DNA from: Antedon mediterranea
Lineage: Eukaryota; Echinodermata; Crinoidea; Comatulida; Antedonidae
Direction of reading: 5' to 3'
Assembly (NCBI RefSeq): GCF_964355755.1
Contig: NC_092677.1
Coordinates: 19,252,101-19,316,100 of the forward strand
DNA length: 64,000 bases
Below are positions 3,587 to 32,470 of this stretch, piece by piece. Below the pieces are notes generated by a model. The model saw only the letters and a program-made list of their open reading frames with translations, ran no database searches and was not told where the DNA came from. The stretch's first letter is position 1; each line of letters begins with the position of its first letter. The translations under genes were made by a program, and so were the position numbers.

Positions 3587-6500
3587 ATGGAGTTTTCAAC
3601 AGAGACAGAAAAGGTGGAAGAGCTGATTTTAGATTTTGCTCTTCAGAATAACATGTATCAGGTGATACAAGGTACTGTAGAGGCCTACTTCTACTAGCTA
3701 CTACTAGGCCCTACTAGGCCTAGGCTAGGCATATTCCATTAAATAAAAATCAATCATACCAATGTCTTTTTTGTTTTTTTAAAAATATTTTGTTATTATA
3801 AAAAAGATGTATAGGCCCTAGTAGGCCTAGGCCTATGTTTAGAAAAAATTAGGTCAACATAAATCATTTTGTATCATGTTTGTATTTTTGTTAATTTTAG
3901 CTTCCGAGCAAAAGAATAAATTAACAAAAATAGAAATTTCCAATAGGTGTGGTGAATTTAGTCCAAAATGGGGAAATTTCTGTCCAGAATGGAGAAATGG
4001 TGGCGCTATGTCGTGTCCAAAATGGAGAAATTTCTGTCCAGGATGGGGAAGTGCTGTCCAAAATAGGGAAGCTGTCTAAAATAGAGAAATCCGATTTGTC
4101 CAAATGGGGAAATTTCTGTCCAGAATGGGGAAGTGCTGTGTCCAAAATGAAGCTGTCCAATATAGAGCAATCCGATTTGTCCAAAATGGGGAAATTTCTG
4201 TCCAGAATGGAGAAATATTTTGTCCAGAATAAGGACAAAAGCGATAGATGGCGCTGTAATCGTGTCCAAAATGGGAAAGCTGTCCAATACATAGAAATCT
4301 GATTTTGTCCAAATGGGGAAATTTCTGTCCAGAATGGAGAAATGGTGGCCCTATGTCGTGTCCAAAATGGGGAAATTTCTGTCCAGGATGGGGAAGTGCT
4401 GTCCAAAATAGGGAAGCTGTCTAAAATAGAGAAATCCGATTTTTCCAAATGGGGAAATTTCTGTCCAGAATGGGGAAGTGCTGTGTCCAAAATGAAGCTG
4501 TCCAATATAGAGCAATCCGATTTGTCCAAAATGTGAAAATTTCTATCCAGGATCGGGAAGTGGTGTGTCTAGGGAACCCTGTCCAATATAGAGAAATCCG
4601 AGTTGTCAAAAGTGGGGAAATGTTGTCCAAAATAGAGAAACTTTCAACAGAGAAATCTAATGTTGACAAATTTCTCCAGAGGGAAGTGCTGTGTCCAAAA
4701 TAGAGAAACTACAGTATCCAATATAGGCCTAGAGAAATCCGATTTTTCCGAATTGTATAAAAGTACAATGCGTGCGCACTATTGAACGATCTTTCAATAG
4801 TGCGCACGCCATGTTTCCCACAATCGTCAAATCAAACAATCTTCAAATGAAATAATCTCTTTTCTTTCTTTTTGTTTTTCTTTTATTTTATTATAAATAT
4901 GTTTACTGAACCACTTTGGAAATCAGTACATTTGGATTGAAAGTGTACAGTATTTCAATTTAAAGAAAGAACAAATAATAATAATAATAATAAAAATGAC
5001 AGGAATTGAATTAGGTGTTGTACAGTATAATAACAATGAAATTACCCAATTTTCAGAACTAATTACATTTTTTTTTGGTCTAAAAAGGCTTCACAGCTAA
5101 TAAAGGACAGGAGTATTTCTTGAAATACCGTAGAAGCACGTCCATTTCTGATGTCCGTATATTTTCGCCAACAATCAGCTTGATAGTTAAGAATGAAGAT
5201 ATTGAAAATTTTGATAAAGTCATTAGGATGCTGACACACATGTATGAAGAACACCCTGAGGCAGTGTCCCTTCAAAGCTTTTCACAAATAATGATTGTCT
5301 TTAAGATAAAGGTAAAAAAAGACAAATGCCACTTTTTTTGATATTCATGGATATTCTTTACTTGCAGACATAAGTTTTCACTGATCAAGTGCAGGAATTC
5401 TTATTCTAAAACACATACTGTACAGTACATCATCCATACATACAGATTGTTAACATGAAAATGCTGTAAGCTGAAAATACTATACTAAGTGATATTTTTA
5501 TACAATTTTTAAAATCTGGCTTTAATTTGTCAACAATGAAATGTAAACATACTTTATATTAATCTCGGACATAATTTCTTGGTTTATAATAGTACCTGTA
5601 TGCATGTATGTTTGAGTTTCCGCTCAGAACATTGTGATTAGTTAATTCTTCCCTTTTATCATTAACTTTATCATTTGCATTAAACTCCCATCAATTCAAA
5701 TTATTTGTCAGTACTGTAGTAGTACAGTATTGTTTAGGCCCTACTCATTCTTCTTCCTACATTGTTAAGCGTTGATAATATGGCATTTCTTAGACTACAA
5801 ACAATACTAATCTTTCCCCCATTGTAAATGAACTAATCTTCACAATGCAGACATTGCTAATATCAGGAAAACAGGTTTTATTTATTTTACTTGATGTTCC
5901 GAAATGGAACTTAATTGCTGCTTTTCATTTTAAAAAGTTTCTTGAAAATCACAGCCTAATAGCATAAGTTTTGTTTCTATTTACAGACCATTCTTTATGA
6001 AATGTCCAAAGAGTTTCAATTCAGCAAAATGTTATCTAAACTTGATGAGTACTTTCCAAGTAAACCAAATAACCCAGTAAGTATAATTAATTATCAATAG
6101 ACTCGAAAAAATTGTTGTTTTTCAATTCGTGCTGAAACTTTTAAAACAAATTAGAATGAATGGCAATACAGAGGAAAAGATACATGATCAATATTTAGGT
6201 AGAAATAATTATGTTTATGAATGTTCAATTGCAGTTATTGGGTATTGACATTACATTATTTTTTAAATCTAGAAGATTCACAAGTATAAGACTGAATCAT
6301 GGCGAAAAATACTCAAAGGAATGATTTGTAGCCAACCAAAAGAGAGACTTCGTATTAAGGAACGTTTGGAAGAGCAATACAATAAGAAATATAGACACAG
6401 ATTTGAAGAAGATGTTAGAAAAATTGTAAAGAAATTTAAAGCATGTCTACCCAGGCCCATCTTGGAGCAGGTATGGAAATAATGTCAACATTGTAAAAGT

Positions 6501-9500
6501 TTCGCATTGCACCATTTCACTAATTCTGAAAAATGATTATGGAATTTTGAAATTATACTATATAATATTTTTTCCAGTCAGGGTTGAAGTGGCTTGATTT
6601 TTAAAATTGATAAAGTTAGGAATTAACTGGAAATATTTACACAATTTTTAAAAAATCGTCAAAGTTGGGAAATATCGTTTAAAGTTGTCTACAGCAATTT
6701 CTATTTTATAAAATATAAACATTGATAATCAACACCACTTACTTTTCGTCAGTGGTGGCAAAGCGTTATGACATTTTTAAAATGGTAAATATAGAACTTT
6801 TTTTCAAATGTTAAAGAGATTCACTACTTGCTTCACTACTTGCTTCACTACTTGCTTCACTACTTGCTTCACTACTTGCTTCACTACTTGCTTCACTACT
6901 TGCTTCACTACTTGCTTCACTACTTGCTTCACTACTTGCTTCACTACTTGCTTCACTACTTGCTTCACTACTTGCTTCACTACTTGCTTCACTACTTGCT
7001 TCACTACTTTGGTTCATGTTAAAAGAATACAGTAATATAATAATAAGCGTTTGTGACCAAATGTCAATTTTCCTGAAAATCAATAGGCATGTTCTGTAAG
7101 TATTTAACTATTTTACACACAAACATTCGGGACGATAACTTAAAAATTGTGGATGCTATCGTGCTAACAAACAAATGAAAGTGAAGTACTTCGCAAAATA
7201 TATCAAGGAAAACTATATTCAGAGAGAGAGGCTCACTACTTATGTAGATGTTTTGATCCATTTGAGGGTGACCTATTTAATATCTCATATTATGGAAGAT
7301 ACAGGTAAGTCGGATTTTAATATACTGTAATAAGCTTTTGTGATGTGACCAATATATCAATTTTCCTGAAAATCCATAGGCATGCACTGTAAGTATATTC
7401 CTATTAACACCAACAAATTCAGGATGCTATCGTGCAAACAAACAAAGCAAGTACTTGGCAGTATATACCAGGGACAAATATTTGGATAGAGAGGGTTTAC
7501 TACTTGTTAGGTCCATGTTAAAAGAATACAGGGGGCCTGCTATTTCATCTCAGATGAAAGATACAAGTAAGTCAGATTTTAATATAAGCTTTGGTGACTT
7601 GACCAATCAAAAATTCAGGACGATAACTTAAACATTGTGGACGCTATCATGCTAACAAACAAAGCAAGTACTATACTTGGCAAAATTTTGTTTTTGCCAA
7701 GACTACATAACCTCCTTTACAGAGGTAATAAATAGCTGGTTAACTAAGGTAAGTTACTGAAAATTGGTAAAAAAATAAACTATCACTAAACAATTAGATT
7801 GTTCTTATACTATATTAATAAATGATAGATACATTTTGAAAGATTAGACATTGGTGCATATGTACAATTGATGTTTTTGACCACAAATATAGCCATAAAT
7901 TGTATATTGGAAAACCATATTCCTATATCTTTAACAAACTATGATATCATTTGTGAACCATTTGATTAATCAGTTTTTAATGTTCAGTTTCAACAATTTT
8001 TAGCTTTTTACTTTGACCCCATTCCTGTCAATTATTAACGTAAAGCCCTTTTAAAAATCGTTGAATCTGGTTTTAAACTCAATGCAACTCGACTGCAACT
8101 CAATGTCTTAAGTTGAACTTTTGCAATATCTTTGATTCCTTTCTAAATTCGACTACTTTTTTATACCTGGCATTAAATATTTACAGTACAGTATGTGTCA
8201 TATTTGATACTTTTTTCATCTTAATTCTACATTTAGATTGTTAATGAAACTGAAATTTCACCACCACACTACAATTTGCAGTTGTCACAAAAATCTGTTC
8301 TTGATAAATTGTTATACAAATGTTTCCAATGTGCTCCTACTGAAGAGACTTTATTGTTGATATTAGAGGAAGTATGGAATGCTGAAAGTCACCAAACACA
8401 AAGCATACAGGAAAGCCAGCTTTTTAATTTCATTTGCTCACAATCTGTCATGTCATCACAAGCTTCTCAAGAAAACGAAATAGTACATCAGTTAGTCTCT
8501 TATTTAGAGGCTAATAGTCAGAGTTTAAGCAGTGAGAGTAATGAACCCTTGTTTGCTATTATTTGCCCAAAAACAGCTGGAGAGTATTCTAGAGGAGACA
8601 GTTCTGAAAGTAGCAAATCAATCACACTTCTTAGAAATCCTCGTGAAATTATCCTACCAGGAGACAACATAAGAGGTGTTCAAATGTCACATTCTGATCT
8701 TAAAAACAAGGAAAAAACACAAACCTGTTTTGAACAGTCAAGAACATATGTTAACTCTGCAAAAACTCCACAAATGTCTGACATAGAAAATGTGGCAATA
8801 ATAGTTAATGATGATGACGAAACCAACAAGGTATTGGTAATTACAGATGATGACCAACAAGCAAAACCTGACAATATTCCAATCGAAGGAAAAGATGGGA
8901 ATCTTGACAAAACAGATATTCAAGGACTTTCTATAAAGTAAGTACATATTATATTGAACTAATTAACAAAATTGATCTGTTTTATTTGGCAACAACCCGT
9001 ATTACAAGCTTTTCAAAACATTTTCTAGCCACTATCTGCCTCCTTCTTCGATTTAGTTGCTGCCTTCAACAATTTGAAGATTTTGCAACTATGAGGTCTA
9101 ATAGAAGGTAGTGACTGTGGCTATGTGAACTAGTACACTGGGCTAATCCCCTACTCAACTCAAAAAAATGTTAAAAATAAGCTCTTTCTTAGTTCAAATA
9201 AACTAGTAAAATCCCTATTCTTTTGTACACAAATGTAAAAATTATCCACTATATACCCACCAACGTTTTTTGCCATTTTTCATTTTCTAGGGTGTTACCG
9301 GATATGTTATTATATCGGTTCAACTACCTAACTACTGAAAAAAGTCTGTCCAAATTTTGTATTTTTCCATTTTAATGATGTATTGTCCCCCAAAAAACAT
9401 GAAAAATAAATCAAACTTTGAATAGATTATTTTGTATTTTTAATAAAGTCAATCACTTTGTAGAAAAAAAACAACAAAAATGAATTTTTTCACTTTTCAC

Positions 9501-11330
9501 AAAATAATTGGTTCAATTCAACCAAAAACCCATTGGATGGCAGCCAATTTGACTATTGTTTTTTAGGTAAATACATTTTTTTTTCGATCCAATCAAAATA
9601 GATAAGTATTAGGTGACATTAAAATTCATGTTTATTTGTTTTGATTTTTAAACATTTTTTATGCACATTTTAAACCAGATATTAAATTCATGCCTACCTG
9701 AGTGCACACAAGCATTCTGTGTACACTGGCTAGAATATAAGACTTGTTCTACCACCAGAACCATGGAGCGAGCTTAAACCTTTACCAATATTATGGCTAC
9801 GTATTACTGTTCCACTCACTCGCATGTGTAAACACAAGGAAGTATACCGTAGGCAACGTATTACTGTTCCACTCACTCGCATGTGTAAACACAAGGAAGT
9901 ATACCGTAGGCTACGTACTGTTCCACTCACTCGCATGTGTAAACACAAGGAAGTATACCGTAGGCTATGTACTGTTCCACTCACTCGCATGTGTAAACAC
10001 AAGGAAGTATACCGTAGGCTACGTACTGTTCCACTCACTCGCATGTGTAAACACAAGGAAGTATACCGTAGGCTAGGTACTGTTCCACTCACTCGCATGT
10101 GTAAACACAAGGAAGTATACCGTAGGTTACGTACTGTTCCACTCACTCGCATGTGTAAACACAAGGAAGTATACCGTAGGCTACGTACTGTTCCACTCAC
10201 TCGCATGTGTAAACACAAGGAAGTATACCGTAGGTTACGTACTGTTCCACTCACTCGCATGTGTAAACACAAGGAAGTATACCGTAGGCTACGTACTGTT
10301 CCACTCACTCGCATGTGTAAACACAAGGAAGTATACCGTAGGCTACGTACTGTTCCACTCACTCGCATGTGTAAACACAAGGAAGTATACCGTAGGCTAC
10401 GTACTGTTCCACTCACTCGCATGTGTAAACACAAGGAAGTATACCGTAGGCTACGTACTGTTCCACTCACTCGCATGTGTAAACACAAGGAAGTATACCG
10501 TAGGCTACGTGCTGTTCCACACACTCGCATGTGTAAACACAAGGAAGTATATCGTACAAGATACAACTTTATTGTCTTTGTCAAAAATGAATGTTGGTTG
10601 ACAACAATTTTGATTAAAAAATGTGTATTATTTGTGTATTAAATCAAGCCCGTTGAAAAATGTTTGCATCTTGTTTTATTAACTATCACTTATCAGTATC
10701 TGTTATACAATTCTTTAATATGTATGTGTGCAACGTTTCAACTTGTTGTCAACAAAAAATCTTCATCTGGCAATGACTAGATCAAATGAAGCATAATTGC
10801 TTGCATGTTTTCAGGGAGCATTGTACAAATGCTGATATTGTGTGTATGTCTACTATATTTGCAGGTTTAATCCAGAATGTACATCAACACAATACAATAT
10901 TATCAATGATGTTTGTGTAGATTCACAGGGATATGCTGGTGGAGTTGAACATGCAGGCAAGTATGTAACAATTGAACAATAATGTAGTGTAATAATCCAA
11001 GTGTAGGTGTTTAATTTTACAAAAAAAGTACACCAAATATGTATATATAGTGACAATCTATATCTGTCCGGGTGCCAAGGTGAGTTTTTTTTTGGGTCTA
11101 GCCTATCATAGAAGCATTATCATGCTTCTTTATTTTCTCAAATTTATGATGGCGTCATTCAAAGAGGCATTCCTCAAATATAATAGTAAAGTTACAGCCA
11201 AATCCATTTAATATAGATGATTGTTACATGCTCCTTATAATTATATTGTAATCAAATACAATGACATACTGTACGACTCTTATCATTATTATTTATTCTT
11301 TACAGATAGTGAAGATATGTCATTTTGAAG
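3587..11330 (+). CDS. TIN2-like (TINF2-type) shelterin protein, seven exons
   Basis: Coding exons: 3587-3671, 5088-5311, 5987-6076, 6273-6470, 8282-8937, 10865-10960 and a terminal exon from 11306. All junctions are GT-AG and phases agree, giving about 450 residues, close to human TIN2. Residues about 80-198 align by eye with the TIN2 TRFH-like domain: a helix ending in EYFPSKP (human HHFPESGP), and ERLEEQYNKKYRHRF (human QELEQEYGEPF) leading to ACLPRP (human KALPTP). TIN2 bridges TRF1/TRF2 and TPP1 at telomeres. The C-terminal part is acidic and low in conserved sequence, with two SUMO-interaction-like motifs (AIIVNDDDE, VLVITDDD). I see no clear FxLxP TRF-binding motif. The final exon has two possible acceptors; the first gives a stop at 11307-11309, the second ends the protein at 11330. 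AATAAA lies at 11481. Exon structure is secure; orthology rests on alignment from memory. Confidence 0.7.
3957..4720. repeat. Higher-order tandem repeat in intron 1 of the TIN2-like gene
   Basis: Short degenerate units (GTCCAAAATGGGGAAATTTC, TGTCCAGAATGGGGAAG) are arranged in a larger repeat of about 345 bp. The segment starting at 3986 recurs almost unchanged from 4331, then degenerates to about 4720. The minus-strand ORF of 202 residues here, rich in FWT and SILD, is a by-product of the repeat. Confidence 0.8.
4770..4809. other. Perfect 17-bp-arm hairpin
   Basis: GCGTGCGCACTATTGAA at 4770-4786 is exactly complementary to 4793-4809, separated by six bases. The sequence just after it (GCACGCCATGTTTCCCACAA) recurs near 36422 next to the ELMO gene, so the hairpin is probably the end of a small dispersed element. 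It lies in intron 1 of the TIN2-like gene. Confidence 0.8.
6829..7008. repeat. 12-bp minisatellite, about 15 units
   Basis: CTTCACTACTTG is repeated about fifteen times with almost no variation, in intron 4 of the TIN2-like gene. Because 12 is a multiple of three, several frames stay open on both strands; these are not genes. Confidence 0.95.
7035..7690. repeat. Degenerate direct repeat of roughly 270-290 bp
   Basis: Blocks starting near 7045, 7330 and 7585 share AAGCTTTTGTGA-CCAA, CAATTTTCCTGAAAATC, ATAGGCATG-CTGTAAGTAT, then CGATAACTTAAA-ATTGTGGA, GCTATCGTGCTAACAAACAA and AAGTACTTGGCA. The copies differ by substitutions and indels. It lies in intron 4 of the TIN2-like gene, next to the 12-bp array. 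Confidence 0.65.
9803..10556. repeat. 54-bp minisatellite, 14 units, in intron 5 of the TIN2-like gene
   Basis: Fourteen copies of a unit containing CACTCGCATGTGTAAACACA and GGAAGTATACCGTAGGC. The first one or two units carry an extra TAT and are 57 bp long; the rest are 54 bp and nearly identical, which suggests recent expansion or homogenisation. Both strands are open for more than 270 codons, repeating an 18-residue peptide, because the unit length is a multiple of three. Confidence 0.95.
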
Positions 11331-11480: not shown

Positions 11481-11486
11481 AATAAA
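11481..11486 (+). promoter_or_regulatory. Polyadenylation signal of the TIN2-like gene
   Basis: AATAAA in GCAATAAAACC lies about 150-170 bp after the predicted stop codon, consistent with the end of the transcript near 11500. Confidence 0.6.
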
Positions 11487-12460: not shown

Positions 12461-15400
12461 TTAGTATGGGCGATTATATAAGAAGTTGTAGAGAAGTTGA
12501 TGAGCAGCATTTGGGTTATCCATCGCTGCCATATGTCCAGCTCCCTATAAAAACAAGCAAACAATTCAAGTCAAGTTTACAATTCTTTAACAAAAACAAT
12601 TACAAAGGAGAGTGATTCATGACCTTTTCAAAAGCCAGACACTTTTGGGCTTGTATGTTTGGTTATGCATTTTAAGGAGCAACAGAATCTTGGACATAAA
12701 TCAGGGGCAGTTGCAGGACTATTTTAAGGGGTTACCCAAGAGTCCAGGGACATAATAGAAACCAAATATTTGCGCCACAGAAAAAAAACAATACCTTAAT
12801 TGTAACAAAGGCCAAGTGGTCTTCATATTCCTGTATGAATCCAGCAATCTGATCATATCCATTGTTATATAGCCATGGACGCCATTGCACAGACACAGTC
12901 TTCCCAAGATCCTTCACAAACCACTCGTTACCAAGGGCATTGCAAGTTAAGTCTACATCACCATTGTAAAATAGAAATCGTAACTCCTACAAAGAAAATA
13001 ATTTAATATTTTTGTCATAATAATAGTATTGAATTTTGTCAATTAAATGAGTTGAAAAGTTGTTCAACAACATTAATTATATAAATATTACTTTCCTGTT
13101 TTATAGTAGAACTAATACTGGTAGGGATACACTCAAGTGTATTATATTTTTTTTTAAATTTAACATTATACAATAAGACAGTGATATAGTGAGGACGAAG
13201 GAAGACATCGCCTCATTTTTTAAAATCAAATTAATTTAATAAATTCTTATGTTCTCTAAGGGCTTATTTATTTTCCATACATACTTTCTGGATCCATGTC
13301 ATTTACCAGTAAATAAAGGGAAATAAATATGGCTTGACTTTTATTGGATTAAACTGCACAGGAAAAAACCCTAGAATAGTTCATCAAGTACCAGTCGGAT
13401 CAACTGCTTAGAATTTTCCTCCATTCAGTTTACGTCCACTACAATCAAAAACTTGCTTGAAATTACAATATTTGTCTAATAAAGCATTTATAAATTGTAA
13501 AATATCTTACGTAAAGAGCCAACAGTTTCTTATACATATCCGTTAGATCTTGATACTTCATTACATATGAGTCTGCAATGTTATCATTGCACACAGTCCA
13601 TGCTGGTACTCCACTATTAATGTGTAGTGCTTGCCGTACATAGGGGTTGTTCAAGTACGTTGTTATGGCAGTAGTGTTAATACATGGTAGGACATTGTCT
13701 CCCTTTGATAGGCTCTTTATATAAAAAAAAGTTAAACGGTGTTATCTTTATACCTGGCACAACAATTATTCATTAGTAACTCAATCAAAAATAAATATAG
13801 ATGACAAATTTCGTTTTTGTAAAAGCACAAGTTAACGGAGTACTTACTCGAACGTTTCGATCTCTATCAGAGATCCTTCTCAACTGACTGCGGAGTGTTA
13901 ATGCAGCTTGGTCATTCTTGACGTCATCTGTTGATGACGTTGTACGCCTCCGGTTGTAGGTTGGAGGTTGTGCGGGGCTCGGCCAGGTGATGTGTCTATC
14001 AAATCATTGTACAAATGCGAGAGTTCGTGGGCTCCAGTGTCCCGGTTCATGGTCTTCTCTTTATTTCTCCTTATATGTAATGATTCTCTAATCTGTCTGT
14101 CTTTGCGTTTAGGCTCTTTGGTTAAGATGGTAGCCTCCCAGTTCGGTACATGATTGTGTTTTATGACATGTTCTGTAATGGCAGATTTGTGTATGATCGA
14201 AGATGTGGATGTTCTGGAGGCCCTAGTCATTACTCCCCCCGTGTTTGTTGTAACATCTTTTTTGTGATCATTAATTCGTGTTTGTAATGCCCTCCCTGTT
14301 TCCCCAATGTAAACTTGTGGACAGTTGCGGCAGGTGACTTCGTAGATTACTCCACATGTATCCATCTTCTCGATTTTATCTTTTGGGTGGACGAGGCTAT
14401 TCTTGATTTTATTTTGGGGTAGGAAATAGGTTCCGACATTGTGATAGGAGAGAGTGCGTCGTATTCTTTCTGCCATTCCTTTTACATAGGGGATTCCTAT
14501 GCTACCTCGCATCTTGATCTTTTCCTTCTGTGGTTCGTGTCCTTTGTTCTTTTTTCTTTTTTGGTTTTCCATAACTCTCTGGAAGGACCACTCTGGATAC
14601 TGGCAGTTGTGTAACGCTTTCTTGATGTTATCCATCTCAACTTTCCTCAAATCCATATCTCCCACTACCTTCTCAGCTCTGTCCACAAGCGTGTTTATAA
14701 GCCCCAGTTTGTGTTCGAGTGGATGATGTGAGTTGAAATGTAAATATTGGTCTGTGTGAGTGGGCTTCCGATAGACTGAGGTGGTAACTGTTCCATTGTC
14801 ATTGAGTGTGATGAGCATGTCCAGGAAAGGTATTGTGTTGTTTGTCATCGATTCTGTGGTGAACTTGATATTGTCAGTTATATCGATGTTATTAAGATGT
14901 GTGTTAAATGTATGTACTGTACCTATGGGGATGATAGCTAATACATCATCAACGTATCGTTTCCAATACACAGGCTTGATGTTAGTGGGTGCCGTGTTTA
15001 TGGCTTGATGTTCGAGCCACTCTAGATACAAGTTCGCCAATATAGGACTTATTGGGCTTCCCATAGCAATGCCTTGTATTTGCCTATAAATGTTACCATT
15101 GAACGAGAAATAGGTTTTGTTCACAATTAAACCGAGGAGCTCCATTATGTCTGTCACATGTAGTTTAGTTCTATCCAGAAGTGTCGGATCTGTTGTTAGG
15201 CGATTTTCGACAACTTTGAGGGCCTCTTCTCCTCCAACCTACAACCGGAGGCGTACAACGTCATCAACAGATGACGTCAAGAATGACCAAGCTGCAGTAA
15301 CACTCCGCAGTCAGTTGAGAAGGATCTCTGATAGAGATCGAAACGTTCGAGTAAGTACTCCGTTAACTTGTGCTTTTACAAAAACGAAATTTGTCATCTA

Positions 15401-18400
15401 TACAAAATCGAAGCTAAATGAAATTCTTTCAACAAAAATAAATAAATAGCTGTATTTACTTTGATTCAATTGTAAACTTTTTAGTCATCTTAGAACCTAT
15501 AGAATAACCATTTATACTGTAATTCACATTGCATTGTGAATATTAATCAAGGGTGTACATTAGGAACTGACACAGCGTGTATATGTACGTATATATGTCG
15601 AATATAGAAGGGCAAGAAGATAAATTGCTGAAAATGACTAATAATAGCGACATGCTCAAAATTGGCAAAACGATCGTAGCCTACTTTTTCAAACTCATTT
15701 GCAAACTACAGAAAAATAACCTCGTAGAACCAGTTGGTAGGTTATTAAATCCACGTCCTAAAAAGGGATTCTCCACTTGTCGCAATTTCAAAAGCCAGTT
15801 TGCTCTTCCTATCTAATAAGTGCATTTGTTTTTTCACTGCCCTACCTGTGATTTACGAAATGTATCAGGGATAAGTGTGCGATTAATTAATTAATATTCA
15901 ACGCAATAAGTGAATGACATTAATTAATCAGGTCCTTAACATAGCCTATTGTGTGCGGCTTTTCAAGAAACATTAGTGTTCAAAGTATAAGCATGTTCTT
16001 ATATTCAGTGACTTCGAATGACCAATTTAGTAGTATTAATACAGAATAAATACATTTACATATAGATATTAAAAGGTATGTTATTGCACAAGTATATAAT
16101 AGCAACAGGTTACACTGTCATGTCAATGGACCTTCCCGGAGTCCATTGTTGTAACACTATAACTGTTTACTGGAGATAGCATACAGTGAATTTTTTCATT
16201 TAACAGGGTGAATGAATTAAACTGATAGTTGCCTATCAAATACCTTTCTACTGAATAGGTCCTCTCCATGTTTGCTGTACTTGTCACGGCTTGGGTATTT
16301 CTTGCTCTCTACACAGTCAGAATTTAGATTGTAAATGTTCAGTCCAACAGATGTGACCATTTGGTAAATTCCATTTACCTAAACAGGCAAAAATGTTTAA
16401 AAGATTTACATTTCACAGGTTGTATTTTTGCCAATTTTAATTTGATATACAGTAACTGCTAATTAAAGTGGGGAAGAAATGTGTCATTGTTTGTTTTATT
16501 TTAAATTTGTTTTAAAAATAATATTTAAATTATGCATTTTATGATTTCCCCATTATTATGATGAATACATTTTTATTCCCATTAATAATTGGAGCTGGAT
16601 GTTTTCATACACACACTATTTGCAAACTTCACATAGCATAACGTGGTAAAAAACTACTACAGTATATTGCAATATTACTTACAGTATCTGTACAGTTACT
16701 ATTGGTGTTATTGAAGTAAGAACACTGGTCGTCTTCACAACATTGGTCTTGAAGTAATGTCCACTTGCTAAACACACATGATATAAAAATTATATATGTA
16801 ATATAATAAATTGCTTGTAATAGGCAGACTTCACAATGAGAGATTCAATCTTTCTACATCATCAACAATCTATATTATAATTCACCAAATCTCTTTGCAT
16901 ATGTCTGTCTGTCTGTGTTTATTCAGAGACTAGGGGGTTGCATGGTCTTCAAACTTGGTGGGTGGGTGCAGCTCGGTATAAGAAAGAGCAAGTTTGGTCA
17001 AGGTCAAAATTTTAAAATTGCTCCAATCGAGCTGAAACTTTTTAAAACTTGGTGTGCAGGTGCAGCTCTTTTCTCATGAAGAAATTGCAAATATTAAACC
17101 TGTTGTAAAATCACAAATTTGTATACCAACTTTACAGAATTGTTAAAAGAGCCCAAGACCTAAAAACCTTTTCTTCAGGCAATGTGTCAAACACTTTTTT
17201 ATAAATATATAAAATAGGAGTAATAGTAATTTCTAATAACTGAAAAACAGAATAGTTCCCAGAGGAGCTTGGCCTTCAACTAAGCAAGATCTTGGTTGAC
17301 AATTAGTTCAAGACTTTGTATGATAATGTTATATACATGCTTACTCATTTCCAATCAATCCATGGTAATAAATATATGGAACGATTGAGTCTACATTCTT
17401 CTGTACACTGTTCAATCCATTCCCAGAAGCAATACCCTAAAATATAAAAAGTACTTAAATAATTGCCAAATAATAAGTTTATTAACATATTACATTGAGT
17501 CATTCATTTAGCACTCCTATCATTTGGTTAAACCTGGTTGTTTGGGTGGTGGTTGTTTGGGTGGTGGTTGTTTGGGTGGTGGTTGTTGGGTGGTGTTTGT
17601 TTGGGTGGTGTTTGTTTGGGTGGTGGTTGTTTGGGTGGTGGTTGTTTGGGTGGTGGTTGTTTGGCTGGTGGTTGTTTGGGTGGTGGTTGTTTGGGTGGTG
17701 GTTGCTTGGGTGGTGGTTGCTTGGGTGGTGGTTGCTTGGGTGGTGGTTGCTTGGGTGGTGGTTGTTTGGGTGGTGGTTGTTTGGGTGGTGGTTGTTTGGG
17801 TGGTGGTTGTTTGGGTGGTGGTTGTTTGGGTGGTGGTTGTTTGGCTGGTGGTTGTTTGGCTGGTGGTTGTTTGGCTGGTGGTTGTTTGGCTGGTGGTTGT
17901 TTGGCTGGTGGTTGTTTGGCTGGTGGTTGTTTGGCTGGTGGTTGTTTGGCTGGTCAGTCAGTAAAAATGTACATTAAAATGTTATAATTTGTAATTTGAA
18001 AATATTAATAACCAATTGTTTTTTGTACATACAAAGAACAACTCTACAGTATGTTAATAATAACAACCATGCACAACATAGCAACAAAGACTGTTCACAC
18101 TGACATGTACCTGCATACACATGCTTGAGTGCTCATAGCCCCTTTCTCACAGATGTGCCTGCAATACAGTGCTGGCGTCGTGCCGGTATCGTTACCGGCA
18201 TATACCCATTCTCATCGGACTATCGTGCCGGAAATATAACCGGTATATACCGGCTTTCTGGGTGTGTAGAAAACAACGACCTCGAATTGGACGACCCCAA
18301 CGACCCGGGCGACCTCGAATTGGACGACCTAGAATTGGACGACACGAAACCGACGACCCCTATAGCCTAGCCTAGGCCTAAGTGTGGTATAACATCCCAA

Positions 18401-21400
18401 AGCCGAACATAGCCAAAGATCTTTAAACCATACCTTATATAATACTCGCAAGCAAACAATTGATTGAAAAAATACAGAAATATCGCCATTTGATACTGAA
18501 TGTGTCGACACGAACAAACGAACAGATATGGAACGCCAAGAGTGCATCATTAAAACTGCATTCGACTCGATTAAATACATCTCGTCTTCTTATAACAAAC
18601 AATATAGGCCTACCAAGCAGCGTGTTGTGAACATGTGCATGAGGAGGGCCATAAGAAAGCTTTACATTTCACACATGCATTGTATACGGTCAAACTTTAC
18701 CCGCCGCTGAAAAGGGGGCCGTTTTGACCTGGTTTGCCATGTTTATGATATTTCGTGTGCTAATCGAGTCGAATGCAGTTTTAATGATGCACTCTTGGCG
18801 TTCCATATCTGTTCGTTTGTTCGTGTTGACACATTCAGTATCAAATGGCGATATTTCTGTATTTTTTCAATCAATTGCTTGCTTGCGAGTATTAAGGTAT
18901 GGTTTAAAGATCTTTGGCTATGTTCGGCTTCGGGATGTTATACCACACTTAGGCCTAGGCTATTACCCCTAATAATTAGGGGTCGTCGGTTTCGTGTTAT
19001 GGGTCGTCGGTTTCGTGTTATGGGTCGTCCAATTCTAGGTCGTCCAATTCGAGGTCGCCCGGGTCGTTGGGGTCGTCCAATTCGAGGTCGTCGCTTTCTA
19101 CACACCCCCGGCTTTCTGTGAGAAAGGAGTCGGGCATATTCGGCCAATATAAAGTCTCTGACAAAATAATTATTGAGGGCGTCCTTTATTGTTGTGTTAT
19201 TGTGTTATACCACACTTAGGCCTAGGCTATTACCCCTAATAATTAGGGGTCGTCGGTTTCGTGTTATGGGTCGTCCAATTCGAGGTCGCCCGGGTCGTCC
19301 AATTCGAGGTCGTCGCTTTCTACACACCCCCGGCTTTCTGTGAGAAAGGAGTCGGGCATATTCGGCCAATAAAAAGTCTCTGACAAAATAATTATTGAGG
19401 GCGTCCTTTATTGTTATTATTTTTGTCTAGCGATGATATGGCGGCGAATGTTAAGTTACAGATTATTATCTTCCTTTATAGCATATTTATGCAATACATG
19501 CTATGTACAGTATATTGTGCATATATTATACAGGTATAGCAATTAATTTGCCGTCATCGGCAATCTGTAAAACACCTTAGAAGGCTGTAGGCCTACAATT
19601 TACAAGGCGACGAAAGGTCAGGCACCAACAAAGAGCTATGTTATGGCCTAGCCTAGCGGCCTATAGATTATGCTACAAATCTCTTCTTGTCCCCTTATTT
19701 TAAGCAGCTCTCTTATCTCATTATCCCTCCAGTTCGACATTATTATTGTTAATTGAATTGAATAGGCGCCAAAGTGATACACTTGACCGCGCAAGGTGTC
19801 AAAGCCTCGACGGGGAACCCCGGAATATAACGGCGATACCTTCTCACAGAATGCCCGTCTGGCATTGCGGGGAATATCCCTAGAATATTACTAGGTCTAA
19901 AGCAGGTAATGTCGATCCCGGCATGGTGCCGGCATGATGCCAAGACGACCCGTTCTCACAGAAAACCATACCTGCATGGTAATGGTATATTCCCGCAATA
20001 TTCCTGGCACACAACTCTGTGAGAAAGGGGCTCACTGACATGTACCTGCATACACATGCTTGAGTGCAATGGTTCCTATCAACATACTGTATGAACTAAA
20101 AACAAAACAAGGCTTACTATCTCAATTATGTGTAACTTACTTTCAGATTCATGCCTTCTGCTTCATTAATCATCTTCATTGCTAATAAAGTGACATAAAC
20201 CGAGGCATAACTTTCCCCTACCAGGTACAATGGATTCACCTTAAAACCACTGTACTTTGTGAAGAATGATTGTAAAGCAGCATAATGATCTTCTGTGATC
20301 TATTGAAACAACAGAATTAAAGTTTATTAAACAAAAATTGACAGGGAACCAAAACCCTTAATTTTTAACCTTTAAAAACATTATATTATACTAGAGGGTG
20401 AGCTCGCTCCCCCTCTAGGAAGTGTAGACGATGGTTCTCGGAATGATAAAAATGTTCTCCTTGTACGTTTTCTGTCGGTTACCATCATTGAAAATGCTTG
20501 ACATTCGTAAAACTAAACTACTCTGTGGGCCTGTTTCTGCTGCAACTGCTCAAAATACGGTATAAAATACAGTATTTTTTATACCGTATTTTTTAGTACC
20601 CCGTTTCTGCTAACAATACTTCTTGGGTGGTCGTGTTAAATTTCATCCTTTTTACCCAAATGGTTATTCATTTATTTGGTCAATAATTAAAATTCGCAAT
20701 AAAGGAAGTTCACTTTCAACAGTCTTGCTCTAGTGATGGGGACAAGTAATTCGTTGCCTCCCCGAGTTATTGTCTTTTTGTTGTACTGCTTTCGCAGGCT
20801 CTTCAGCTTTGAGTTTACTTGCTTTGGAGACAATTAGTCATTAATTCCGTACTCCTGCTTTATTTTTTTAGAAATGTCTTTATAAATGTGGTTGTCCCTT
20901 TTATTACTGTACCTTTTAGTTGGCCGGACATTTTAGCTTCCCCACCCCACACAGATTTATATAGTAAATACTGTGACGTCTTTGCTCCACATTTTTGTGT
21001 AAAACAGCTGACAGCGACAGAAAATAAAAACACGCTGTTGACCTCATGTCGCAGGTAAAAAAATACGGTATTTTTTATTGGCAGCAGAAAAGGGTACAAA
21101 AAATACGGTATAAATTTGTAAATACCGTATTTTATCCACAAATTTTGTGGAAAAAATACGGTATACAAAATATGGTATTTTTTTTATGAGCGCAGTTTCT
21201 GCTGCCAAAAAAATATGGTATATAGGCCTATACGGTATTAAAAAAATACCGTATAACATACGGTATTTTCTTGGCAGCAGAAACAGGGCCTGTTTCACAG
21301 TGTTTTAGATGATTAATAACATTTTAAAGTATAGTGTTTATTGTTTGGTAGGGCCCTTTGGGGAGGCGGGGTTCATTTGAGGGAGGTGCTTATTCGAGGG

Positions 21401-24230
21401 ATATATGTTCATTTTTTTAGTTTTAATAATATGGTAACATTTATAATCAAATGAAATCCTCTAATAGATATGAAAAGTGGTAAAAAAGAATAACAAATGC
21501 TTGGTAAATTGTAGATAACAGTGCGATGAATTCTACTACAAATAGTATAATGATTATTATTCAAAGTGATGTTTTATTGGAGAGGCGTTTATTCAAATAA
21601 ATACCATCCTAATAATTATTAATACATTATTTAATTTAAACATCTTTTGAAACTAACTGCCGTGACAGAGTGGGCCCAAGAAAGAAGACATTACAGCTTG
21701 CAACATGGGCAGACATCTCGGTCCTAACGGGACACAGATAGCCTACAGTTATTCCTGCCAGCTTACTCAATCAAATATCGGGATTTCACTCGATTTTAAA
21801 CAAAATGTCTTATCATCAAATCTCCCTATGTACCGTAATTTTATAATACTATTTCCCACAATATATTCAGATTCTTTATGGCGTATATTTAATTTGATCT
21901 TTATTAATTTGCAGAGTAATTTTTATTTTTTAACTACTGTACCTTCACACACGCGCGGTCCGTTCCTAAAATAAACAAAAAACTGAAATGGCTAGTCCTA
22001 TCGGTTTTTTCCTTCCTTCTTCCAAAGGGACACTATTTATTGATGGAAAGTGCCTGTTTCCAGTCACCTTTAGGGTCAAATCTATTATTTTAACTGCTCC
22101 CTTGTGTATAAAAGAGAGAAAATAGTTAAAACCAGGTTGTTGCAAGGTGAACCCGGAAATTACTTTGACCCGCGAAGAATTGAAATTGAGTAGAAAATCT
22201 ACTGTTGAAATCATAAATTTTGTTAAAAAACTCTTTATAAAGATAGAAATATGGAACAATAGCGTCGATGTGAAAACTAATGTTATCAAATCTACGTTTC
22301 GCGGTACATCTGAGATAGATAGGGTAGGTATCCAAGGCGGAGATTTGTACCGAAGTTTTTGCATTGTGCTCGCCTATGTCAGAATTAACCATAATTTATA
22401 ATATAGATTGTGACATTACTCTCAGTTATACCAATTTCATTATTCATTAATTTGTCATCAAATCTGTTGATAAGGATGTTTAGGCTATGGCACTGCAATG
22501 GCACAACATAGCTAGTGCAAGGTATCTCCCAACAGTGCAATCTACAACAGATACTCTTCATTAATTAAAAGAACAACAATGGGTAAAGCTACAGTACCAT
22601 TCTGTATAGATTCACACTAGAATCTCAAGTTTTCTTTTTTGTACAGGGCTAAAATCTGATAATTATTAATTAACTAGCAATTCAATTAAATTACTCTAAT
22701 CTTCAAACATTTATTATAATAAAGGGGTTACTGAGTGTAGATATCATGTACTACAAATGTTAATAATAAAATAATACCTGGTCATCATCAGTCTTGTATT
22801 GTTTATCATCTGAAAATGAATATCCTACACCGGCTGGTGATTCAAGATACAGCACGTTTGCAAACTAGAAAAAGTTAATTCTTATTAGTTCTTACTACTG
22901 ATAAAGATACATTCACAAGCCTGGGTAAAACAAAATAAATGGGAATATAGTATTTAAAGACAGTTGAGTTATAATTAATTCATTATCGGTATATTACCAG
23001 GAGGTTTCAAATTTTTCTATGCCTGATTTCGCCTGTGTTAACCATCAATTTCAGTATTTTTACAGTGCTGAATTGTGTTTATTGTATTATAATATATACA
23101 GAATATGCCTGTATATATGCCTGTATAGCATAGAGAAAATGAATGCTAATTTTGAACATGATGAAGTCATTAAAATAAAGATTTTCTGAAGAAATTTTTC
23201 TAAGCACGTATTAACATTTGTCAAGGAAATTGTAGAAGCAAGATGCGCGTTCTTTTAAACGTGATGAAATATTCTGAAGAGACAAATAATGTTAAATGAA
23301 TGTTAAATTTTAGGAACCATGTTTTTATCATGTCTGCATGCTGTTTGGTTTTTATGGTAAGGCCTTTTAGAAGAAACTAACAGTCAATTGAGGAATGAAT
23401 TCGCGTTTAATAGTTCATACTAAACTTACTGAGTTCCAGCTATATTCATTGTAATCTAGATTAACTCCATCATCATTTACTATAAATGGTCCATTCTCTG
23501 CAAATAGGCTGAATAATGAGCTACATCCTGGTCCACCATACAAAAACACTATGATAGGGTCAGTTATCTTATGTGTTGAAGTTATTAGCCTGCACAAAAA
23601 TTAAAATGAATAGTTAACTTTTAAAATTAAAATTAAATAACATATTTTTCTTGGCACACAAAGATTGCCAAGAGTAAAAGTCACTTTCCTACAGAGATGT
23701 GGGAATTCGGCTCTACTTAAGGTTCTCTACACAAAGTCTCAAAACAAGTCTTTGGGAGTTAAGATCATTTTGTGAGAAAAAATCCTGACATCTAGGAGGA
23801 CTCCACTTTATGCACCTACGGTATATTAAAAAAAATATAGCATATAGACACATTGGCTGGGCCAAAACATCTTAGGATTCTGACTAAAATTTAAAATGTT
23901 TTTCGAGGTCTATAGGAGATATTCTAGTTTTCCAATCAACTGTACCATTACTGTATTATTGGATATTTACATTTAATACCGTTTTTTTAGTTTTTAAAAC
24001 ATTGTTTTATACACAGTGTGTGTAAAGTGTAAATATTATATGAAAAAATCAAAGATTTTGTACCAGTAATGTAATTGTTTTGTTCCAGTTGCTTTGAGGT
24101 AACCTGAATAATGTGGAAAAGCTGGTTGCTTCAGTAAGCCTGGCAAGCTTAGAACCTCATCTGGATTTGTGGCAGCCATGACAACCATGAACAATGCAGA
24201 AAACACACAACATAATCGTACTTGCTTCAT
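12461..24230 (-). CDS. CTSA: Lysosomal carboxypeptidase A-type serine carboxypeptidase (cathepsin A / PPCA-like, family S10), ten exons
   Basis: Exons in coding order: 24230-24064, 23589-23430, 22864-22778, 20299-20141, 17436-17345, 16767-16683, 16378-16244, 13714-13511, 12986-12795, 12544-12461. All phases agree and give 454 residues (human cathepsin A 480). The product starts with a signal peptide ([20 protein letters not shown]), then [69 protein letters not shown] and a C-terminal GAGHM. The triad is Ser168 (GESYA), Asp373 (NGDVD) and His431 (GAGHM). Cathepsin A trims C-terminal residues in lysosomes and, in vertebrates, protects beta-galactosidase and neuraminidase. Oddity: the near-invariant WLNGGPG reads FLYGGPG (Asn to Tyr at residue 73). 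Introns are swollen by a Penelope-like element, two inverted-repeat elements and a minisatellite. Cathepsin A fits better than vitellogenic-type carboxypeptidases because of the LPGLLKQP...YSGYL and NGLNS...YYHGL signatures. Confidence 0.93.
13797..13967. repeat. Left inverted repeat of the Penelope-like element
   Basis: Reverse complement of 15231-15401. Read on the minus strand it contains GATCTCTGATAGAGATCG followed by AAACGTTCGAG, a short hairpin next to a GAAAC. Penelope terminal repeats are known to carry hammerhead ribozymes; this core (CTGATAG rather than CTGATGA) departs from consensus, so I do not call a ribozyme. Confidence 0.9.
13898..15230 (-). pseudogene. Truncated Penelope reverse transcriptase-GIY-YIG endonuclease ORF
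   Basis: The frame is open from the junction with the right inverted repeat (15230) to a stop inside the left repeat; the first in-frame ATG is at 15157 (419 residues). It starts in the middle of the reverse transcriptase: the stretch before TYFSF, then [16 protein letters not shown] (motif 4), [12 protein letters not shown] (motif 5, YVDD) and a thumb region. It ends with a GIY-YIG domain, [20 protein letters not shown] followed by [10 protein letters not shown]. Motifs 1-3, including the first catalytic aspartate, are absent because the 5' half was never copied. The protein is therefore expected to lack reverse transcription activity, although the endonuclease domain looks intact. Confidence 0.92.
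15231..15401. repeat. Right inverted repeat of the Penelope-like element
   Basis: Begins CCTCCAACCTACAACCGG and ends TTTGTCATCTAT. It has the same length as the left copy and differs by one base seen (GCAGTAACAC versus GCATTAACAC). It is fused directly to the truncated reverse transcriptase frame. Confidence 0.9.
17536..17957. repeat. 15-bp minisatellite, about 28 units
   Basis: GGTTGTTTGGGTGGT is repeated, with blocks of variants (GCTTGGGT, GTTTGGCT) in runs of four to eight units, a pattern of local homogenisation. It lies in an intron of the cathepsin A-like gene. The G-rich plus strand could form G-quadruplexes. Three plus frames stay open for about 150 codons (WWLFG, CLGGG, VVVWV); these are artefacts. 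Confidence 0.95.
18098..20067. mobile_element. Inverted-repeat element with a fold-back core, flanked by 35-bp direct repeats
   Basis: AGCCCCTTTCTCACAG at 18137-18152 is the exact inverse of CTGTGAGAAAGGGGCT ending at 20032. Outside lie 35-bp identical direct repeats (18098-18132 and 20033-20067, CACTGACATGTACCTGCATA then CACATGCTTGAGTGC). TTCTCACAGA recurs inside both ends. The core holds a long inverted repeat: about 18250-18573 pairs with about 18757-19125, including repeated GACCTCGAATTGGACGACC. No transposase is visible. It sits in the cathepsin A-like intron between exons 20299-20141 and 17436-17345. Family unknown. Confidence 0.75.
18938..19410. repeat. Tandem duplication of about 267 bp inside the fold-back element
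   Basis: The segment from GTTATACCACACTTAGGCC through GGGTCGTCGGTTTCGTG, CCCCCGGCTTTCTGTGAG and GAGGGCGTCCTTTATTGTT occurs at 18938-19195 and again at 19205-19410. The second copy is slightly shorter, having fewer GGTCGTCCAATTCGA units. Confidence 0.8.
20527..21290. mobile_element. Non-autonomous inverted-repeat element packed with AATACCGTATT palindromes
   Basis: The ends are GGGCCTGTTTCTGCTGC and its near-complement GCAGCAGAAACAGGGCC, with TGT on both sides as a possible 3-bp target duplication. Near both ends are many copies of the self-complementary word AAATACGGTAT/ATACCGTATTT, able to form alternative hairpins. The centre has no recognisable protein. It lies in the same cathepsin A-like region, in the intron between exons 22864-22778 and 20299-20141. 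Confidence 0.65.
21300..22777. other. Intronic stretch with overlapping unassigned ORFs
   Basis: Remainder of the cathepsin A-like intron. Opposite-strand ORFs overlap here (22147-22401 plus, 84 codons; 21966-22364 minus, 132 codons). The translations show no motif I know and no flanking splice logic. I see no other feature. Confidence 0.4.
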
Positions 24231-24481
24231 GGTGATCCTGCATGGATATAAATTTGGTGAAAACAATACCAATTGTAATATTACAAATATAGTATTTGAA
24301 ATACACTGCATCTACTAATCTATTTAATGTTAAAGTACAGTAATACACAAATAATAAATGTCAATTTCAATTTCAACTTAACATTTATTTCTTCCTTCAA
24401 GAAAATGAACATAATATATTCAGGTAAAGTATATAACGAGAAGAATAAAGAATGATAAATATTATGATGATTAAAAAGTAA

Positions 24482-24995
24482 TCAATAAAAGGAAGTAGGC
24501 AGTGCCCAATAACAAAAGGAAGTATGCAGTGCCCAATAACAAAAGGAAGTAGGCAGTGCCCAATAACAAAAGGAAGTAGGCAGTAGCCAATAACAAAAGG
24601 AAGTAGGCAGTGGCCAATAACAAAAGGAAGTATGCAGTGGCCAATAACAAAAGGAAGTAGGCAGTGGCCAATAACAAAAGAAAGTAGGCAGTGGCCAATA
24701 ACAAAAGGAAGTAGGCAGTGGCCAATAACAAAAGGAAGTAGGCAGTGGCCAATAACAAAAGGAAGTAGGCAGTGGCCAATAACAAAAGGAAGTAGGCAGT
24801 GGCCAATAACAAAAGGAAGTAGGCAGTGCCAATAACAAAAGGAAGTAGGCAGTGCCAATAACAAAAGGAAGTAGGCAGTGGCCAATAACAAAAGGAAGTA
24901 GGCAGTGGCCAATAACAAAAGGAAGTAGGCAGTGGCCAATAACAAAAGGAAGTAGGCAGTGCCCAATAACAAAAGGAAGTAGACAGTGGCCAATA
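24482..24995. repeat. 27-bp minisatellite with CCAAT in every unit, upstream of the cathepsin A-like gene
   Basis: About nineteen units of GGAAGTAGGCAGTGGCCAAT plus AACAAAA, some 26 bp long. Every unit contains CCAAT. The array begins about 250 bp upstream of the predicted start codon (24230), so it lies in or near the promoter or 5' UTR of that gene. CCAAT is the core of NF-Y sites; whether it acts here is inference. ORFs on both strands are artefacts of the 27-bp period. Confidence 0.92.
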
Positions 24996-25300
24996 AGATA
25001 GAAATCTTGTGGCGTTTGAGTGATGGTTAAGTTGAAAATAGAATACAAACATTCAATTTGTTTTAATACTTTTATTTAATATCGTATACATATAAACTGG
25101 TAAAGTACACAAAGGAAAATTTAGTTATCGTTTATTTTATTATTGGTGATAGAAAACGTCACCATTTACATATGTCGAGTTACGAAAAAGCAGTCAGCGC
25201 ATGACACATGCAGCAGCTCGAAGTGTCTTACTCAATATTTGTTACTCTCTACTAGGCCCTATCTAGGCCTAGGGCGAGGCCTTGCTTGTACACCAGCACG

Positions 25301-27658: not shown

Positions 27659-28385
27659 CTACTGTGGCACAAATGCTCTAGTGTTTTTCCTTTTGGGTGT
27701 TTTGCCTGATTCCTTGCATTCACTACAAAGTGGATAATTCATGTTCTCAATTGATAAATTGTGCTCAGTTCCACAATAAAAGCACAGGGGGTCTGTGAAT
27801 GTTATGTAATAAGCTGCTTCGAGAGGCAGGGCACATGTCATTTTGTCATTGACAAAAACAATAGAATCGTCCTCTCCCAGGATGTCTTGAAAACAAGTTC
27901 CACATGAATACGACAGTGTGTCCAGTTCTCGTTCCAAGAGCTGCCCTTGGTCACGCTTCAGAACATGTGCTGCATAACATACTCGCCACTTGAGGCATTC
28001 TTCACACTAGAATAAAGAATGAAAAAGAGTAGGGGTAAATATATGGTAAATTCAGTTGTGTTGAAAGAATTCTGAACATGACAATAATATGATAATATGA
28101 CATCCAAAGAGGGAGGGAATATCAATGCATACACACATATTTTAAACAGGACGTGGGTCATGTACCCGAACACGTCCGTAAACATCTAGCCTATATATAT
28201 GGGACAGTTTCAACCCAGCCGGGTCGATTCACCCCTCTATGGATAGGCAAACTCTACACTCTCTCGCGACAATATGCTAGCCTACAGTTTTGTTACTTCT
28301 GTATGAACATTTTTTACCGAACAATTACTCACCTCCGTAGTTTGGTATTGGTCTCCTATCGGTCCACCTTGATCGAATTCGCCGC
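27659..28385 (-). CDS. Cysteine-rich zinc-binding C-terminal exons of an element-borne protein (partial)
   Basis: The last exon (28006-27659, acceptor TTCTAG) encodes 115 residues: CEECLKWRVCYAAHV, LSYSCGTC, VFVNDKMTCA, PLCFYCGTEHNL, NYPLCSECKESGKTPKRK and a stop. The paired CxxC motifs at regular spacing indicate zinc binding. The CxxC..WR..Y...L...YSCG...YYCG...YPLCxxC layout resembles, from memory, repeated uncharacterised proteins of marine invertebrates; function unknown. A preceding 53-bp exon (28385-28333) fits in phase and ends with a GTGAGT donor. Earlier exons are uncertain. It lies inside the TTA-flanked element, so it is probably the element's own protein or a captured gene. Confidence 0.55.
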
Positions 28386-31260: not shown

Positions 31261-31622
31261 CTACCAACTAATAATCAGATGTCAGTGTATATGACGACAA
31301 GACCTACTACCATCAATCAACAGACATACTGTATATTTAGAAGAAGAAAAAGTTAACACAAACCTCTTTTTTTTTTCAACAACTCGGCTACTGCTGATTC
31401 TTTAGCAGTTATATCATGTGACTGAGTGAATTTTATATCACGTGATCTGATTTTTGCAGCGCACCTGACCGTTACAACAAACAGGAAGTAAAAATAATAA
31501 AGGCGGAAGTAAATTTATTTAGGCTAGGTTGTGAGTTCTTTTTTGACATTAGAAACTAATATAGTATAGGCCTAGGCCTACTACTACTAGGTAAGTTATT
31601 ATTTGTGTCCTGGAATAATGAG

Positions 31623-32470
31623 TGATCTCTTTTTGTGTGAGTGAGTGAGTGAGATCATTAATTCATTCAGCTGCTTCTGAGTGAGCGTTCTGTTTAGCCT
31701 AGAATAGATAGCTAGGCTAGCCGAGCCGAGCCGAGGTGTAAACAGACGAGCGGGGCCACGGATGATCGTGTCCATCATAGAGACGATCGGGCCCATTTTT
31801 TTTATGAGCCCGATCGTCTTATATGCTTGGCCCAATTGTCTTAGGCGTTGGTTCCGATCGATAGCCTTCTTAATCGTTGAGCCTGATACTGATAGTCCTA
31901 AAACTCTGTCTGGGCCGATCGTCTTTTTTTTATTCTTTAATATAATTCCCTCAAACAAATTATTATTCCCAAGGGGTGACAAATCTTATATTTCACCAAT
32001 ATAAAAGGCGATATCGGTTAAATGTCCATGGGCCAGACGTTTTTTCGGTATCAAATTTGTGGCAAATGCTACCATATATTTTTGGAAAGCTTAATATGTC
32101 TACTTTTCAGAAATCCATGACAGCAATGCCAATTGTAATAATAATAATAATAATATTTATTCGGTCATCAATGTAAAAATAACCAGGAATGAGAATAGGC
32201 TAAAGCCCAAACAGATTCTGCACTCACTCCATACAATACAAACAGTTAAGATAAAACCATATCCAAGAAAAATACAAATAAACTATACATAACATGAAAT
32301 ATAGTGTTTTGTTAGAGCAGCCTTAAATATTGAAATTGTTTGTGAATCTTTTATGTCATTTGGTATGACAGCTTAATAGCTATCTAGGCTAAACAGAAAC
32401 TCACTCACTCAGAAACAGCTGAATGAATTAATGATCTCACTCACTCACTCACTCACACAAAAAGAGATCA
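31623..32470. mobile_element. 848-bp inverted-repeat element with GAGT-rich ends
   Basis: TGATCTCTTTTTGTGTGAGT followed by GAGTGAG repeats, ATCATTAATTCATTCAGCTG and CTGTTTAGCCTAGA at the left is inverted at the right, ending at 32470. The arms are about 100 bp. A second palindromic patch (GACGATCGGGCCCAT...ATGAGCCCGATCGTC) lies at 31780-31820. No clear target duplication and no real protein. Confidence 0.7.

Follow-up and report, generated by a model that had tools for sequence, protein, structure and literature searches.

A probable, diverged TIN2 homologue in the genome of a non-vertebrate animal

Does a non-vertebrate animal carry a gene for TIN2 (TINF2), the shelterin scaffold? The question was raised by a spliced gene near the beginning of a 64,000-nucleotide stretch of contig NC_092677.1 (positions 19,252,101 to 19,316,100, forward strand; the window, whose numbering is used below). 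The initial annotation of the window had proposed TIN2 orthology from the exons, their phases and short motif matches. Our analysis indicated that the gene is very probably a diverged TIN2 homologue, as judged from its sequence, and it looked like a divergent addition to the known TINF2_N family rather than something new.

Profile match to the TIN2 N-terminus

The gene was found to consist of seven exons on the plus strand between positions 3587 and 11328. When joined in frame, these gave 1413 nt encoding 470 amino acids, with a single terminal stop. The exons and continuous phases first described were retained, as was the start of the proposed span; its end, given as 11330, was moved to the stop codon that closes at 11328. 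The features of the gene were as follows.

3587..3671, plus strand: exon 1, start codon and residues 1-28; open frame with a GT donor, frame continuous into exon 2, exact end presumed
5088..5311, plus strand: exon 2, residues 29-103; the TINF2_N match starts at residue 61
5987..6076, plus strand: exon 3, residues 104-133; includes LSKLDEYFP
6273..6470, plus strand: exon 4, residues 134-199; includes EEQYNKKYR and ACLPRP, and the TINF2_N match stops at residue 199
8237..8937, plus strand: exon 5, residues 200-433; tail with no recognised domain
10865..10960 (GT donor) or 10865..10956 (GC donor), plus strand: exon 6
11306..11328, plus strand: exon 7 and stop, with an AG acceptor; reading frame set by the choice of exon 6 donor
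11481..11486, plus strand: AATAAA polyadenylation-type signal

A profile search of the N-terminal residues had been named in the initial annotation as a check on its proposal. Residues 1-199 were scanned against Pfam (24,736 models, maximum expectation value (E) of 10, with filters that remove most matches above about 0.1). TINF2_N (PF14973, the TIN2 N-terminus) was the clear best match, with E = 1.4e-6 over positions 3-149 of 149, five orders of magnitude ahead of the next family at E = 0.21. The two half-domains, scanned separately, each ranked TINF2_N first and lay in register on the profile, neither being significant by itself: residues 29-110 matched positions 3-48 (E = 0.017; next family 0.095) and residues 104-199 matched positions 71-149 (E = 0.086; next family 0.11). 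The whole 470-residue protein matched TINF2_N at E = 2.1e-5 with the next family at 0.3, so that TINF2_N was the sole family below E = 0.3. TINF2_N appeared in none of the control scans, which covered three of the five control sequences generated, one reversed and two shuffled.

The alignable core motifs that had first drawn attention to the gene were present in a single collinear alignment with the TIN2 chain 5xyf_A over query residues 61-195 (E = 0.40, not significant alone), which paired DEYFP with NHHFP, EEQYNKKYR with EQEYGEPF, and CLPRP with ALPTP. The significance of the TIN2 match derives from the Pfam profile and not from this single-sequence alignment. A single-sequence AlphaFold2 model (pLDDT 44.1, pTM 0.29) was mostly helical from residue 67 on and too poor for a fold search.

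Under the strongest competing explanation, the protein would be a helical one of MIF4G/HEAT-like type, such as the splicing factor CWC22, and would resemble TIN2 in helical composition only. CWC22 was the best PDB sequence match, over residues 95-193, with E = 0.081 and 0.11 for two sequences and 0.02 for a fragment, but these matches were all non-significant. Furthermore, the MIF4G and MA3 families were unlisted in the filtered Pfam scan, in which TINF2_N reached 1.4e-6. We consider this explanation improbable.

Several results weigh against TIN2 homology. The TINF2_N score of residues 1-199 was 29.1 bits, 0.3 bit below the Pfam curated cut-off of 29.4, and the whole protein scored only 25.3 bits against the same cut-off. 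The reversed control matched an unrelated family at E = 0.006, and modest false matches may thus occur with this charged composition. TIN2 (5xyf) was the last of the 7 PDB sequence matches listed (E = 0.42, not significant) and, in a second comparison, the last of 3 (E = 0.40), with CWC22 ahead of it in both and none significant. When the genome was searched exon-wise in six frames with the TIN2 model, no match was obtained at E ≤ 10, presumably owing to the division of the domain among three exons; in one bacterial control genome, a match below the cut-off was obtained. TPP1 was not found in the genome; the best candidate (E = 2.43, contig 9) was rejected when its open reading frames were judged by eye to hold no TPP1 domain, and this non-detection does not show absence, because the gene is intron-split and fast-evolving. 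The mammalian TRF-docking motif [F/Y]xLxP had 0 matches in the 470-residue model, in which an exon may have been missed.

Telomere components elsewhere in the genome

The 36-base pattern (TTAGGG)6 gave 78 overlapping matches in the genome, all on one strand and within 698 bases of the start of contig 3, that is, at one contig end. A strict TRF Myb signature pattern matched the genome three times. One of these matches was a C-terminal Myb, which recovered the PDB TRF1 and TRF2 Myb chains from E = 1.2e-12. The upstream TRFH exons, once joined, matched the TRF2 TRFH at E = 3.8e-9 and that of TRF1 at 2.5e-5 in a PDB sequence search. These exons were picked by eye, and a few residues at the joins are intronic or left out. 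The chains of TRF and TIN2 that appear among the PDB matches are taken to be human. The two remaining Myb-pattern matches were judged to be due to chance, one lying opposite a longer open frame and the other inside a 642-codon retroelement-like frame. The TRF gene was recorded as follows.

Contig 4, about 15422438-15439400: TRF gene, comprising TRFH exons and a Myb at the C-terminus (PDB sequence search)

The Pfam TRF model found no match in the genome, nor in the joined TRF exons, for which Myb-type and weak families were listed. Because this model also missed true TRF exons, the absence of a genome match by the TIN2 or TRF models is not evidence.

Other shelterin and telomerase components were detected by genome search. 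The POT1 model PF02765 matched above the cut-off at E = 3.0e-7. Similarly, the TERT RNA-binding domain model matched above the cut-off at E = 8.8e-6, in a frame with one internal stop. The RAP1 Myb model gave two matches below the cut-off, in neighbouring stretches of which one carries on where the other stops (positions 1-35, E = 0.012; positions 36-55, E = 0.066). With the TINF2_N match, the TRF, POT1 and TERT sequences, the RAP1-like pieces and the TTAGGG repeats, the gene is probably the TIN2 orthologue that had been proposed.

Only one telobox exon was found by the strict pattern, and it belonged to the TRF2-like gene; the count of a single TRF thus depends on one pattern. TRF1 and TRF2 are described in one report as arising by duplication during metazoan evolution (PMC11670948), and a TRF2-like TRF with no second telobox match is consistent with this. 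The earlier impression of an invertebrate source also fits the TRF2-like gene, and a vertebrate source is unlikely, as a vertebrate TIN2 would be expected to match the solved chain far better than E = 0.4. A search for COX1, directed at the mitochondrial code, gave no match.

The TRF gene also bears on a further explanation, that the protein is a TRFH-domain protein other than TIN2, either a second TRF-type protein or another TRFH paralogue lacking a Myb. Such remote paralogy is conceivable, as the TRFH domain of TIN2 is reported to resemble the TRF1 and TRF2 domains in structure, although identity is low (PMC7617103). However, the family matched was TINF2_N and not TRF, no Myb was present downstream in the protein, and this genome encodes TRF separately, in a gene that has both a TRFH and a Myb. 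The missing TRF-model match carries little weight here, as the same model missed the true TRF exons. This explanation is slightly less probable again than a MIF4G/HEAT-like protein.

Splicing, tail and proposed working of the protein

All five introns between exons 1 and 6 had GT...AG ends, with the frame unbroken throughout. The first acceptor (TGGTCTAAAAAG) was poor, making the exon 1-2 junction the least certain of the five. The last intron junction is ambiguous, with three possible C-termini. A GT donor at 10961 gives a protein ending in ...EHAGK, with the stop immediately following the junction codon; use of a GC donor at 10957, which requires a GC-AG splice, gives ...EHADSEDMSF, which is the C-terminus of the initial annotation; and an unspliced last intron gives ...EHAGKYVTIEQ followed by a stop. 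Exon 5 was a 234-codon open stretch. In 300 simulated 8 kb sequences based on the local intron and flanking sequence, no open stretch was that long (maximum 187 codons), and the G+C content of exon 5 differed by codon position (0.45, 0.34 and 0.25). A protein search of the 354 Mb genome found no second copy, as all 6 of the 6 matches at E ≤ 0.01 were the gene's own exons. A pseudogene, or open frames wrongly joined, is the least likely explanation, as the awkward last junction, the poor first acceptor and tandem repeats in introns 1, 4 and 5 are set against five frame-keeping GT-AG introns, an exon 5 far beyond chance length with codon-position bias, a downstream polyadenylation signal and the lack of any further copy as a pseudogene source.

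The tandem arrays were scanned over positions 1-28000 of the window. Intron 5 contained a minisatellite (9805-10556; 54 bp × 13.9 copies, 97% matches), in which 302-codon open frames on both strands were discounted as genes because the 54 bp repeat is a multiple of three. Other arrays were present at 4014-4633, 6820-7009, 17535-17954 and 24487-24996, with periods of 82, 12, 15 and 27 bp, respectively.

The closest approach to the docking motif was a degenerate HYNLQL at about residues 210-215, right behind the domain. When residues 200-470 were shuffled 2000 times, the [F/Y]xLxP pattern arose by chance in 109 cases. Strings of this pattern also occurred in intron frames, where the surrounding open stretch was either short or, at 83 codons, embedded in repeats, and they were not accepted as exons. 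Motif scans of the exon 5 tail showed two stretches that are hydrophobic and then acidic, with VAII at 385 and VLVI at 398. By reading, the 470-residue sequence did not contain the CK2 element TIGDLVLDSDEEE, which is reported in the long TIN2 isoform of mammals (PMC11941968).

In mammals, two papers describe cooperative binding of the TIN2 TRFH domain to short motifs in TRF2 and TPP1, and a distinct docking motif that binds TRF1 strongly and TRF2 weakly (PMC7617103; PMC5974431); the spelling [F/Y]xLxP follows a third source (PMC7227075). By extension, residues 61-199 of the protein described here would adopt a TRFH-like fold, and this domain may bind short motifs in TRF and in a partner TPP1. 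The protein would then link TRF, located on double-stranded TTAGGG repeats, with TPP1-POT1 at the overhang, mainly via the TRFH-like domain, with the tail perhaps contributing weakly. We propose such a bridge because the TRF is TRF2-like and the tail is without a canonical TRF-docking motif. We are less sure of this mechanism, including the fold, the binding and the telomere function, than of homology to TIN2.

A tentative and rather doubtful extension is that TIN2 in this lineage has no TRF1-type docking peptide and that shelterin is held only by the TRFH-like domain on the one TRF2-like TRF. On this view the peptide would have been acquired later, perhaps in connection with the origin of TRF1. 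We give this limited credence because short motifs are easily lost, mis-spliced or diverged. The point of wider interest is that a TIN2 without the canonical docking motif may be ancestral in animals.

Neighbouring loci and comparison with known systems

The following loci were identified in the remainder of the window.

12735-24311, minus strand: gene for a serine carboxypeptidase resembling cathepsin A, in convergent orientation to the TIN2 gene; Peptidase_S10 E = 3.3e-58 for exon pieces assembled by eye
13901-15238, minus strand: Penelope-like retroelement frame, flanked by exon-like pieces of the carboxypeptidase gene; reverse transcriptase E = 6.2e-5 and GIY-YIG E = 1.8e-4, both below the cut-off
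27662-28006, minus strand: cysteine-rich open frame of 115 codons; best Pfam match E = 0.033, not significant
31602-31985, minus strand: open frame of 128 codons; no Pfam match
37235-53276, plus strand: ELMO-like gene; ELMO_ARM E = 4.4e-15 on joined pieces
45003-45323, minus strand: element with a 5S ribosomal RNA match at 45203-45323 (E = 1.1e-12)
57414-62524, minus strand: second ELMO-like gene, read by eye

The two ELMO-like genes face each other and seem to be paralogues; at E ≤ 0.01, Pfam returned nothing for the single exon frames at 37235, 53085 and 57417. The sequence downstream of the 5S match recurs on the plus strand near 40284-40420, and the element at 45003-45323 is therefore probably a 5S-derived short interspersed element rather than a 5S gene. 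A pattern obtained by eye through back-translation of a recurring open-frame ending was also searched for, without a match. Synteny with human TINF2 gave no support, as the neighbours here are the carboxypeptidase and ELMO-like genes, which presumably do not lie beside human TINF2.

As the initial annotation had expected, this gene could be missed by pipelines and left as hypothetical. Because TIN2 diverges fast, even this gene, correctly spliced, falls just below the curated cut-off, and an animal may be wrongly scored as TIN2-less. The exon model and the genomic places of TRF, POT1, TERT and the RAP1 candidate provide a starting set for examining shelterin wiring beyond vertebrates; the picture of shelterin itself is unchanged by the finding.

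Fission yeast Poz1 has a bridging role between the double- and single-strand telomere proteins. The literature searched (titles and the beginnings of abstracts) yielded no paper naming Poz1 together with TIN2 and TRFH-like, and no description of an invertebrate TIN2. An annelid search for shelterin and CST components described pot1 and ten1 homologues, with no mention of TIN2 (PMC6305377).

The TRFH domains of TRF1 and TRF2 are reported to have a fold in common with the TIN2 domain (PMC7617103). The present protein differs from them in having no TRF-family or Myb match, and the TRF of the genome is separate, on contig 4. Mammalian TIN2 (TINF2; PF14973; 5xyf) is the closest comparison. Similarity to it is weak, and the present protein is without the [F/Y]xLxP motif and, by reading, the TIGDLVLDSDEEE element; it also has about 37 more residues ahead of the domain than 5xyf_A, query residue 61 corresponding to chain residue 24. 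The likeness lies in an N-terminal domain matched across nearly the full profile and in a genome that also carries sequences of TRF, POT1 and TERT together with RAP1-like pieces.

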